Positions 22,787 through 27,053 of a DNA stretch of 64,000 nucleotides are shown one piece after another (the first letter of the stretch is position 1; every line of letters begins with the position of its first letter). Location: the NCBI GenBank assembly GCA_001563335.1, contig LRSL01000086.1, positions 1 through 64,000 on the forward strand, read 5' to 3'. The position numbers and the translations under genes are program-made. Under the pieces are notes generated by a model that did no database searches, had not been told where the DNA came from, and was given only the letters and a program-made list of their open reading frames with translations. This DNA comes from Candidatus Thorarchaeota archaeon SMTZ1-45. GTDB taxonomy: Archaea > Asgardarchaeota > Thorarchaeia > Thorarchaeales > Thorarchaeaceae.

Positions 22787-23749
22787 CTATTGATAACATC
22801 TAATTGGTGCAAGAAGCTTCGGATAGTGGTAATGTAATAATCTACGCATCTCAAAGCAGAGATGGCATTCATTAACGAATGTTGAATTTGGTTCTAGCCC
22901 ATGTTGTAGAGCTAATTGATAGAGACCTATCGGACCAGTTTCCGCCAATATACGAATGATTGGATGATTGCTGTATGAATAGCTGTTGAGGGAGTCTGAG
23001 AGTGAGTTTCTCTTCGCGTTCCCAATGCATATTCCTGGGCACAGGGTGATATTTCCTTCAAAGTCTATCTCAATCACTTCAGGACTTCGCAAGTCGCCTC
23101 CTAGCCAGAAGGGTAGGATGCATTTCCCATGGGGAATTTCGGGAGACATTTCAGCATAACCGATCAGTGATTTAGCCCCTCTTCCCTCAAAGTCGACTGG
23201 ATATAATGACTGCTCTATGCCTTCTATGTCTTGCACCTCTCTAAGAGATGCCTTTGTCAACTGATCATAGGGGTTTTTGGACTCAAGTGACTTCATGTAG
23301 TAACTATCCACCCATACCTTCTCAAGACCAAGAAAGACTGCCGCTTCGATGCCAAGCTTAACATTTCTGATATCGATATATTGCTGATGAAACCCGTCAA
23401 CGCTAAAGGTAAGCGTGTTCAGGCCTGCGTCTATAAGCTCCTTGAGCGTCTTTCTGGCCACATGAGATGTCCTTGCCCAGAACCCATTTGTTATGGATCC
23501 TCTTCGTGGAACACCTAAATCTTTCGCGATTGTTAGCATTGCCTTCATATCATCTAGGTAGAGAAATGGTTCACCACCATGAAGTGTCAGCCATTCAAAT
23601 TGTTTATTTTCTGCTAGGTCAGAGAGCCACTGCTCAGCGTCATCAAGACTGATATGACCTACTTGCTCTGGACCTGCGTTGTACGCACAGTGATCACATT
23701 TAGATGGGCATCGGAATGTGATCAAAAGACTAGCTCCACGTACCTGCAT
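22787..23749 (-). CDS. Radical SAM protein
   Basis: ITFRCPSKCDHCAYNAG (CxxxCxxC), LTLHGGEPFLY, extra C-terminal Cys (CPGICIG, CHLC). Confidence 0.9.
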   Translation of the reverse strand: MQVRGASLLITFRCPSKCDHCAYNAGPEQVGHISLDDAEQWLSDLAENKQFEWLTLHGGEPFLYLDDMKAMLTIAKDLGVPRRGSITNGFWARTSHVARKTLKELIDAGLNTLTFSVDGFHQQYIDIRNVKLGIEAAVFLGLEKVWVDSYYMKSLESKNPYDQLTKASLREVQDIEGIEQSLYPVDFEGRGAKSLIGYAEMSPEIPHGKCILPFWLGGDLRSPEVIEIDFEGNITLCPGICIGNAKRNSLSDSLNSYSYSNHPIIRILAETGPIGLYQLALQHGLEPNSTFVNECHLCFEMRRLLHYHYPKLLAPIRCYQ

Positions 23750-23797: not shown

Positions 23798-24418
23798 TTA
23801 AGTCAAATCCTTAGGTGTTTGGACATCCTCCTCAATCCACGAATCTGAAGATTCTGTTTCATAGATGTAATCACGAAGAAAGCCCCTAATGGCAGGACCT
23901 ACTGTGGCGGTGATGATTGAACCCGCGGTCACCTGTATCCAGTTCAATGTAATTAGTTCTGCAAATGCTACTCCTAGTGCCACCAAAAAAGAATAGTCCA
24001 AAAGAACAAACAAGAATATCTCACCAATAAAGTAGCCAAGCATCATCACTAGCGAAGCAACGACCAAACCGACTATGTCCAATTTTGTTAGGCGACTAGT
24101 CATCCCAACTTGGCGGCTCGCTAATCCTACAATCATTCCTTCACACCCTTTTACAACAAACGTAATCGGTGCAAATTGGATATAACCTAAAGTCACATCA
24201 GCCACTGCTGAACCAACGCCTCCCGCAAAAAAACCACCGAGAGGCCCAAGTAGAAGTCCACTCAGCATTACAAGTGCATCGCCAAAATTCAAGAAACCAG
24301 TGCTCGTTGGGAACGGAACAACTATTATCATGGTGGCAGCAGTAGTTAAAGCAGTCAGAATAACCAGAAGCGCCACGAACAGTGTTCTATTTTGTGTTTT
24401 GGGTTTGAAGAGCTCCAA
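23798..24418 (-). CDS. ECF transporter S-component-like membrane protein
   Basis: Hydrophobic; GFLNFGDALVMLSGLLLGPLGGFFAGGVGSAVADVTLGYIQFAPITFVVKG. Confidence 0.8.
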   Translation of the reverse strand: MELFKPKTQNRTLFVALLVILTALTTAATMIIVVPFPTSTGFLNFGDALVMLSGLLLGPLGGFFAGGVGSAVADVTLGYIQFAPITFVVKGCEGMIVGLASRQVGMTSRLTKLDIVGLVVASLVMMLGYFIGEIFLFVLLDYSFLVALGVAFAELITLNWIQVTAGSIITATVGPAIRGFLRDYIYETESSDSWIEEDVQTPKDLT

Positions 24419-24957
24419 TTATCATCATCCTCTCGAAATAAGTACTTGCTGAAGATAATCAAATCCTCGCCATAGTAATGACTTCGCAGGAACCCCTCTT
24501 TTCTGTAGCCAAGACTTTGATACAGCTGAATTGCCTCAGTCATTACCCATGCAGTTACTAAGAAAAGTTTGTGATTCCCATTCTTGATTGCTATAGACTC
24601 TAAGGTTTCAAGTAGCTCAGTGCCGATGCCACGACATTGATACATAGGATGAACTCCAAAAGAACTTACCCGCATACTCTCATGTTCTTCGAAGCCTGTC
24701 ACAGTTCCAACGACATCATTGCCAATTTCTGCAATGAGAACTTGAGATGCTGATAGAATGCGATCACGAATTATCCATGGTTTGGAAATAGTTCTATCAA
24801 CAGCTTTCTTTGGATATCCCCTCGATATGAGAGGATAGAATGCAGCCTGCATTACTCGATAGATCGCAAGAGCATCCTCTAATGTGGCTTTCCTGATTTT
24901 GAATGCGGGCTCTGATTTGATTTGAACTGTGTCACCAAGATCAATGAAAGACACCAT
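24355..24957 (-). CDS. GNAT acetyltransferase
   Basis: SFGVHPMYQCRGIGTELLETLESIAIKNG, LYQSLGYRKEGFLRSHYYGEDLIIFSK. Confidence 0.88.
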   Translation of the reverse strand: MVSFIDLGDTVQIKSEPAFKIRKATLEDALAIYRVMQAAFYPLISRGYPKKAVDRTISKPWIIRDRILSASQVLIAEIGNDVVGTVTGFEEHESMRVSSFGVHPMYQCRGIGTELLETLESIAIKNGNHKLFLVTAWVMTEAIQLYQSLGYRKEGFLRSHYYGEDLIIFSKYLFREDDDNWSSSNPKHKIEHCSWRFWLF

Positions 24958-25009: not shown

Positions 25010-25043
25010 AAAATTATATATAATTTTGAGCCTATATATAGGC
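25010..25043. promoter_or_regulatory. Two consecutive perfect palindromes in the promoter of the PLP-fold/PadR fusion gene
   Basis: AAAATTATATATAATTTT (25010-25027) and GCCTATATATAGGC (25030-25043), 11-44 nt upstream of ATG 25054; first overlaps a likely TATA box. Confidence 0.65.
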
Positions 25044-25053
25044 CAGATATGTA

Positions 25054-26547
25054 ATGTCGTGCCTTTTTTCTTTCAAATGCTCAAGATGTAATCAAACACA
25101 TGACTCTGACTTGTATGCTCCTAGATGCACGAGTTGTGGAGGAGTGTTACGTGTAGAGTATGATATTGAATGTGTAAAAGAAAAACTTGGAAAGAACGGG
25201 TTTGAGAGAAGGACATCAGGAGTATGGAAGTATCATGAGTTATTGCCTGTACTGGACAAGACCAATCTTGTATCTCTTGGGGAGGGTGGGACTTACCTAC
25301 ATAGATGTTATGGTCTAGCTGAAAAACTGGGCTTAGATGAGTTATACCTGAAAGACGAAACAACTAACCCTACTGGTGCGTTCATAGACAGAGGAACTGC
25401 AGTGGAGGTTACTGTAGCAAGACAGAGGGGGTACAATTCAGTCTGCTGTGGGACTACAGGAAATTTGGCAGTTTCACTCGTTGCATATGCTGCAAGAGCA
25501 GGATTGGAAAGTAAGGTGTTCATTGGACAAAAAGGTCATGTTGATTCAGGTAAACTCTACCAGATTCTAGCATATGCAGCTCAGGTTGAAATTGTGAGAG
25601 ATCGAGAAGAAGCTCTATCTCGAGCATGGCAAGAAAGTAAACAGAGTCACTCTGTTGTGCCCAGCAATCCACACTTTCTTGAGGGGGTTAAGACTACAAT
25701 CTTGGAAACATGTGAACAGTTGGACTGGGAAACACCAGATTGGGTGATAGCGCCGATGGGAAACGGTGGACATATCTCAATGATATGGAAAGGACTTGTT
25801 GAACTAAAGGAGCTTGGACTAGTTCCAAAACTGGATGTTAGGTTAGTAGGAGCACAAGCAAGGGGATGTTCACCGATTGTAGAAGCATTCGAAAAAGGTA
25901 GCAAGAAGATAATTCCATCTAGTCATGTTTCAACTGTTGCCATTGACATTGGTGTCAGAGATCCTTCTTGCGGAAACATGGCTCTCGACTCTTTGGAGCA
26001 ATCAAAGGGATTGGCTGTATCCGTAACTGATAGGGAGATTCTCGAAGCGGTAAAAGACTTGGCTCGATTGGAAGGTGTGTTTGCTGAGCCAGCTTCAGCG
26101 ACAACAATAGCAGTGCTGCAAAAACTTGTAAATGAGGGTCGAATTGACAGGGGTGACAGAATTGTCTGTGCTATTACTGGAATGGGGTTAAAATATCCAG
26201 AGATAACACGCACATTCGTAAAAGGTAAGAGTACCTTAGAGTACTTTCTGAGCCACGTGGAGGGGCGTCGTTTTACAACAAAACTTGGTCAAACAAAAGT
26301 ACGAATATTGCAGATTCTTTCAAGAGGAGAGTCTTATGGTTATGCAATCTGGAAATCAATGGTAGATGACTACGGTTTTCGAATCAAAATCCCAAGTATC
26401 TACCAGCATATCTCTGAACTGAAAAATAGTGGGCTTATCGTCCAGACAAGAACCGAGGAAACCTACAGAAAGACTTCCAGAAATTATTATGGTCTGACTG
26501 AGAGAGGGCATCTAACACTTGACCAACTTGAGAAACTATCAGAATAG
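25054..26547 (+). CDS. Threonine-synthase-like PLP-fold protein fused to a C-terminal PadR-like wHTH; PLP-Lys position is Ile
   Basis: Zinc ribbon CSRCNQ..CTSCGG; NPTGAFIDRG (canonical NPTGSFKDRG); GNGGHISMIWKGL; C-terminal VRILQILSRGESYGYAIWKSMVDDYGFRIKIPSIYQHISELKNSGLI...YGLTERGHLTL. Confidence 0.88.
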   Translation: MSCLFSFKCSRCNQTHDSDLYAPRCTSCGGVLRVEYDIECVKEKLGKNGFERRTSGVWKYHELLPVLDKTNLVSLGEGGTYLHRCYGLAEKLGLDELYLKDETTNPTGAFIDRGTAVEVTVARQRGYNSVCCGTTGNLAVSLVAYAARAGLESKVFIGQKGHVDSGKLYQILAYAAQVEIVRDREEALSRAWQESKQSHSVVPSNPHFLEGVKTTILETCEQLDWETPDWVIAPMGNGGHISMIWKGLVELKELGLVPKLDVRLVGAQARGCSPIVEAFEKGSKKIIPSSHVSTVAIDIGVRDPSCGNMALDSLEQSKGLAVSVTDREILEAVKDLARLEGVFAEPASATTIAVLQKLVNEGRIDRGDRIVCAITGMGLKYPEITRTFVKGKSTLEYFLSHVEGRRFTTKLGQTKVRILQILSRGESYGYAIWKSMVDDYGFRIKIPSIYQHISELKNSGLIVQTRTEETYRKTSRNYYGLTERGHLTLDQLEKLSE

Positions 26548-26672: not shown

Positions 26673-27053
26673 ATGTCCAAGAAATGGATACAGAGTGATG
26701 ATTGGAAAACCGAAAAACATGTACCTGTAATTGAAATCATGAAGGTTGAGGATGGAAAAGCCTTCGTCAAAGTGTCTGTTGGCAAGGAGATTGCACATCC
26801 AAACACAACAGCCCACCATATCAAATGGATGGATCTCTTTTTCTGGCCAGAAGGAGATAAGTTTCCAGTGGAGATCGGTTACGCAACCTTCGACCATCAT
26901 GGTGAGTCAGCTCAGGGACCAGACACTAGTGGAATTTACAGCGAGCCCGTTACTAAGTTTGTCTTCAAGACTGGCAAACCAGGTACCTTGATGGCTACAG
27001 CTTATTGCAACATTCATGGTCTCTGGAAGAGTGAAGCTGAACTTACACTCTAA
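26673..27053 (+). CDS. Superoxide reductase (neelaredoxin/desulfoferrodoxin domain)
   Basis: EKHVPVIE, VSVGKEIAHPNTTAHHIKWMDLFF, ATAYCNIHGLWKSEAEL. Confidence 0.92.
   Translation: MSKKWIQSDDWKTEKHVPVIEIMKVEDGKAFVKVSVGKEIAHPNTTAHHIKWMDLFFWPEGDKFPVEIGYATFDHHGESAQGPDTSGIYSEPVTKFVFKTGKPGTLMATAYCNIHGLWKSEAELTL

Follow-up and report, generated by a model that had tools for sequence, protein, structure and literature searches.

The open reading frame at positions 25054 to 26547 of the 64,000-nt stretch of DNA analysed here (the window) encodes a protein with a threonine synthase (TS) fold, in which isoleucine occupies the place of the PLP-binding lysine and to which a winged helix (wHTH) is fused at the C-terminus. 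The question raised by this locus is what such a protein does. We propose, with a probability of about 0.7, that it controls the supply of vitamin B6 as a one-component transcriptional regulator.

The fusion protein and its missing lysine

The following features of the protein are used below:
25054..26547, + strand: TS-fold/PadR-wHTH fusion ORF, 497 aa (Pfam PALP and PadR domains; 8 full-length orthologues)
25270..26181, + strand: fold-type II PLP domain resembling threonine synthase (residues 73-376), the putative sensor (Pfam, Foldseek)
25384..25386, + strand: ATA codon for Ile111, where NPTGSFKDRG has the PLP lysine
26305..26523, + strand: winged helix of the PadR type (residues 418-490), which would bind DNA (PF03551)

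The elements named in a sequence-only reading of this DNA (an NPTGAFIDRG motif with an ATA codon, a zinc ribbon, a phosphate loop, a GK..Q motif and a C-terminal PadR wHTH) were all confirmed. The motif reads NPTGAFIDRG, with ATA as codon 111. Pfam assigns residues 73-376 to the PALP domain (E-value 6.6e-63) and finds PF03551 with an E-value of 4.9e-13 (49.3 bits, cut-off 27), which places the protein among the PadR-type winged-helix regulators. The protein retains the zinc-ribbon cysteines C9, C12, C25 and C28, the G-N-G-G-H loop and the GK..YQ motif, all of them conserved in the orthologue alignment. An AF2 model, built from an input of only 9 sequences, had a pLDDT of 78 and a pTM of 0.72, and its best Foldseek matches were threonine synthases, several of them PLP-bound. 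The ThrC model TIGR00260 matched the PALP domain with 218.5 bits (cut-off 167.1); the PLP-binding lysine that ThrC carries in NPTGSFKDRG is Ile111 in the window protein. The match to NF004170 ('threonine synthase') spans positions 2-441 of 442, but its 279.7 bits lie below the curated 421-bit cut-off for membership of PRK05638.

A sequencing error at the ATA codon, or a decaying pseudogene, would be the simplest explanation of a change that amounts to a single substitution at the catalytic codon, and the sequence-only reading had kept a one-base error (AAA to ATA) as a live alternative. Full-length orthologues, 54-64% identical, were found in Thorarchaeota, in Hermodarchaeum and in one MAG labelled Bathyarchaeota. 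All 8 that cover the site have isoleucine, making it invariant across the 9 aligned sequences, and because they write it with three different codons (ATA, ATT or ATC) a one-base error or a recent mutation is ruled out. With full-length frames in addition, we regard error or decay as extremely improbable. The Bathyarchaeota label of the 3.8 kb contig L007 may reflect a binning error or transfer.

The lysine position across Asgard archaea

TS + wHTH fusions were surveyed in 228 Asgard genomes, and 114 loci (113 genomes and L007) were examined with their neighbours. The PLP-lysine position is occupied by Ile, Leu, Arg, Ser, Asn, Thr or Val in 82 loci and by Lys in 32. The latter comprise 31 members of family f20, which we infer to be Lokiarchaea, and G161, which is really a standalone TS. 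The lysine is thus missing from 82/113 fused Asgard proteins and only f20 among the fusions retains it; it was present in all 14 standalone TS compared. A quick, unrooted tree was computed from the TS domain with the lysine column left out. A branch with an SH-aLRT of 95 has the true fusions on one side, f20 is nested among Lys-less lineages, and G161, first counted as fused, groups with the standalone TS. Since the Lys label needs two changes on this tree, one loss and one regain is among the shortest histories; several losses are also possible. The expectation that the lysine is absent from wHTH-fused members therefore holds for most of the Asgard fusions and fails for f20: because a family nested in the Lys-less clade keeps the residue, this is a regulator family that has mostly, not always, lost it.

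The lysine of f20 bears on another explanation, in which the fusion is an active or bifunctional, autoregulating threonine synthase, the f20 proteins being true enzymes and the others having residual catalysis by another group. In G098 and G141, two genomes with a listed completeness of 100%, the fused protein is the only ThrC-level match, which fits this explanation as well. Against it, seven different residues replace the lysine across the clade, and the window's own genome has at least two further TS homologues with the lysine, L012 (NPSGSFKDRP) and L013 (NPTTSFKDRG), so that the second, canonical thrC that had been proposed as a check has Lys-bearing candidates. We consider an active enzyme very unlikely. 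In G098 and G141 themselves, which belong to f20, the Lys-bearing fusion might be a bifunctional enzyme-regulator, or threonine synthesis might be absent.

The rest of the PLP pocket has been kept. Among 43 members with neither Lys nor Arg at the PLP-lysine position, N137, G236/G238 and T375 (the Asn of STGN, the phosphate-loop glycines and the Thr of TGxGLK) are retained in 39, 43 and 42, respectively; the R-type proteins show more divergence here. In fold-type II enzymes the residues at these places contact O3′, the phosphate and N1 of PLP. A pocket kept without its lysine is compatible with non-covalent PLP binding.

Gene neighbourhood

Three genes form a divergent set upstream of the fusion gene:
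24355..24957, − strand: gene for a GNAT-family acetyltransferase, the first in the set and overlapping the one for the S component (Pfam PF00583)
23798..24418, − strand: S component of an ECF transporter (PF07155), candidate for vitamin B6 uptake and putative regulatory target (Pfam 1.8e-32)
22787..23749, − strand: gene for a radical SAM protein, the third in the set (Pfam PF04055)

The S component is divergent from the regulator in the window, as it is in the Thorarchaeal-type loci. The GNAT gene is also linked in L001 and L008, and the radical SAM gene is likewise clustered at L008, the Hermodarchaeum locus. A PF07155 S component lies at most three genes from the fusion gene in 83/114 loci (14 families), and genes for EcfA, EcfA and EcfT are also found at several loci. 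In 10 other loci, from 4 families, the gene within three genes is pdxS, with pdxT as well where the locus was examined in detail (PdxS and PdxT were identified by NCBIfam). None of the 83 S-linked genomes has PdxS. Neither the S component nor pdxS adjoins the fusion in 21 loci, some of them cut by contig ends.

Other genes occur nearby. An EamA/DMT-like transporter is encoded near the regulator in L007 (89-1060) and L008 (2666-3622), and a desulfoferrodoxin-like gene (26673-27053) lies downstream, on the same strand as the regulator, in most Thorarchaeal loci. In G197-G199, G201-G204 and other f1 Thorarchaeal genomes the S component is present but no fused regulator was found.

The neighbours also speak to the possibility that the TS substrate site serves to sense an amino acid or phosphohomoserine, perhaps held as an external aldimine of PLP with no lysine to be passed on to, and that the regulator controls amino-acid-related uptake. 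The substrate-site motifs of the TS fold are largely retained, and a type II enzyme devoid of the lysine might keep such an aldimine bound. The recurrent neighbours, however, are B6-family genes, and no recurrent threonine-pathway gene was recognised beside the regulator in the clusters examined. An amino-acid sensor therefore appears unlikely to us.

The S component: vitamin B6 or riboflavin

PF07155 is the family of the vitamin B6 transporters PdxU and PdxU2/HmpT (PMC9997740). The sole PDB sequence match of the window's S component was HmpT/PdxU2 (4HZU_S), which was also the best Foldseek match. HmpT is a pyridoxamine transporter, and its ligand residues E41, H84, Q87, Y120, N140 and Q143 (PMC4860826) align with D47, K90, E93, Y129, N159 and Q162. 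Tyr, Asn and Gln are identical and the other three are substituted (E to D, H to K, Q to E); all six positions are invariant in the Asgard S-component alignment. By family, by similarity to HmpT and by the conserved ligand positions the protein belongs with PdxU/HmpT, and we propose that it is a vitamin B6 uptake protein.

In Archaea, PdxST is the only route to PLP (PMC9997740). Over the 228 genomes, 6 have both the S component and PdxS, 154 only the S component, 32 only PdxS and 36 neither. This near-exclusion (Fisher 2e-14, odds ratio 0.04) is stronger than the anticorrelation of the S component with RibH (odds ratio 0.15), the p-values describing tables of related genomes, in which the exclusivity is phylogenetically structured, not independent events. 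A RibH match was obtained in only 33/228 Asgard genomes; most appear to be without the usual lumazine synthase and without PdxS. Because most genomes lack RibH too, vitamin auxotrophy in general could yield part of the exclusivity. In genomes where the two pathways are discordant the S component tracks the absence of PdxS rather than that of RibH: it is absent in 14/18 PdxS+ RibH− genomes and present in 9/13 PdxS− RibH+ genomes (p=0.013), which favours B6.

These counts matter for the idea that the vitamin sensed is a different one, above all riboflavin, and that the PF07155 protein is a riboflavin S component. Pfam names the family 'ECF-type riboflavin transporter', the next Foldseek matches of the S component include RibU structures, and RibH is both missing from most Asgard genomes and anticorrelated with S. 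This idea is opposed by the discordant genomes and by HmpT as the only PDB sequence match; the alternative neighbour in four families is pdxST, and the proposed sensor domain has a PLP-binding fold. We give riboflavin, or another vitamin, a small chance.

A palindrome in the promoter

Two elements precede the start codon:
25016..25023, + strand: ATATATAA, element resembling a TATA box, shortly before the palindrome
25030..25043, no strand: GCCTATATATAGGC, perfect palindrome and putative operator, separated from the start codon by 10 bp

GCCTATATATAGGC thus sits between the TATA-like ATATATAA, which is invariant in an alignment of 14 family-f1 promoters, and the start codon. With at most one mismatch the palindrome occurs in this same position at the promoter of 15/19 Thorarchaeal-type carriers of the fusion gene tested versus 0/6 non-carriers. 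G185, G195 and G196 had been picked as non-carriers by the Ile pattern; they had the palindrome and proved to be Leu-variant carriers. Within two mismatches there is a single copy in the window. A genome-wide regulon was looked for and rejected: with up to one mismatch, the palindrome is found essentially only at the gene's own promoter.

The half-site CCTATAT is present in 21/22 f1 promoters (1.2 expected) and in 8/14 other non-Lys, non-Arg promoters outside family f11 (0.8 expected). It takes the form CCTATATATAGG in G164, G173 and L007, and ATATAGG-N6-CCTATAT occurs in G168, G171 and the pdxST-linked G178. The half-site thus reaches distant S-linked genomes as well as one linked to pdxST. 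It was not found in the promoters of the pdxST-linked f11 family, and in the R-type and f20 promoter alignments neither a shared operator nor CCTATAT was recognised. A further perfect palindrome, AAAATTATATATAATTTT, surrounds the TATA-like element (25010-25027) in the window only and is not seen in orthologous promoters.

These patterns are consistent with GCCTATATATAGGC being the operator of the fusion protein, and the position of the palindrome over the start region suggests repression.

A proposed regulator of vitamin B6 supply

The proposal builds on the architecture, the conserved loss of the lysine, the gene linkage and the conserved palindrome. The TS-fold domain would no longer make threonine; it would bind PLP, a B6 vitamer or a PLP adduct without an internal Schiff base and relay its ligand state to the PadR winged helix at the C-terminus. 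As a dimer, the fusion protein would bind CCTATATATAGG, which is flanked by the TATA box and the start codon, and would thereby repress both its own gene and the divergent genes, among them the one for the PF07155 (PdxU/HmpT-type) S component. Relatives in other Asgard lineages may control pdxST instead. That PLP serves as co-repressor in this scheme we rate at even odds. The sequence-only suggestion that the protein lost catalysis and became a ligand-responsive transcription factor is now well supported by the loss of the lysine, the kept PLP pocket, the wHTH, the Lys-bearing paralogues, the palindrome and the gene context. Counting against the proposal are the many Thorarchaeal genomes with an S component in which no regulator was found, the lysine of f20, the 21 loci with neither neighbour, the phylogenetic structure of the S/PdxS exclusivity together with its weaker RibH counterpart, the three substituted HmpT ligand residues, and the f11, R-type and f20 promoters, in which the half-site was not recognised.

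The architecture is already modelled by NCBI, under the name threonine synthase. A literature search found no relevant paper on a TS-PadR fusion in the open-access literature, preprints and most subscription journals being outside its scope. There is perhaps one chance in two that the fusions represent an undescribed class of PLP-sensing transcription factor, descended from a fold-type II enzyme whose Schiff-base lysine disappeared early in Asgard evolution and which took on the regulation of B6 uptake or synthesis, the lysine being regained in f20 (probably Lokiarchaea). We know of no earlier B6 regulator proposed for Archaea; if the proposal is right, this would, as far as we know, be the first, and the design of a PLP enzyme plus a wHTH would have been invented independently from a different fold. 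Misannotation would be widespread, about 100 Asgard 'threonine synthase' proteins being regulators. Most Asgard archaea would be predicted to depend on vitamin B6, which is relevant to their cultivation, and the locus would provide a testable operator, ligand and transporter.

Comparison with known systems

RbkR, BirA and similar regulators join a vitamin or cofactor enzyme domain to a wHTH that controls the genes of the vitamin. They keep an active enzyme, whereas the window fusion has an enzyme site without its essential residue. With ThrC (TIGR00260) the protein shares the fold and most pocket motifs, but it lacks the PLP lysine, has an additional wHTH and is linked to B6 genes. The NCBIfam equivalog PRK05638/NF004170 has the same architecture of TS and C-terminal wHTH; it is named as an enzyme, whereas most Asgard fusions examined are without the PLP lysine.

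A functional parallel is PdxR, of the MocR/GabR subfamily of GntR, which also combines a PLP-enzyme fold with a winged helix and whose regulons hold pdxST and/or pdxU (PF07155) (PMC5320631, PMC9997740). MocR regulators are found in Bacteria and are absent from Archaea (PMC5320631). The fusion family shows the same linkage to pdxST or to a pdxU-type transporter, but not the N-terminal GntR wHTH and fold-type I aminotransferase domain of the bacterial protein: it is archaeal, with a fold-type II TS domain, a C-terminal PadR wHTH and usually no lysine. The fusion is probably a vitamin B6 regulator whose mode of action resembles that of PdxR, yet it stands outside MocR.
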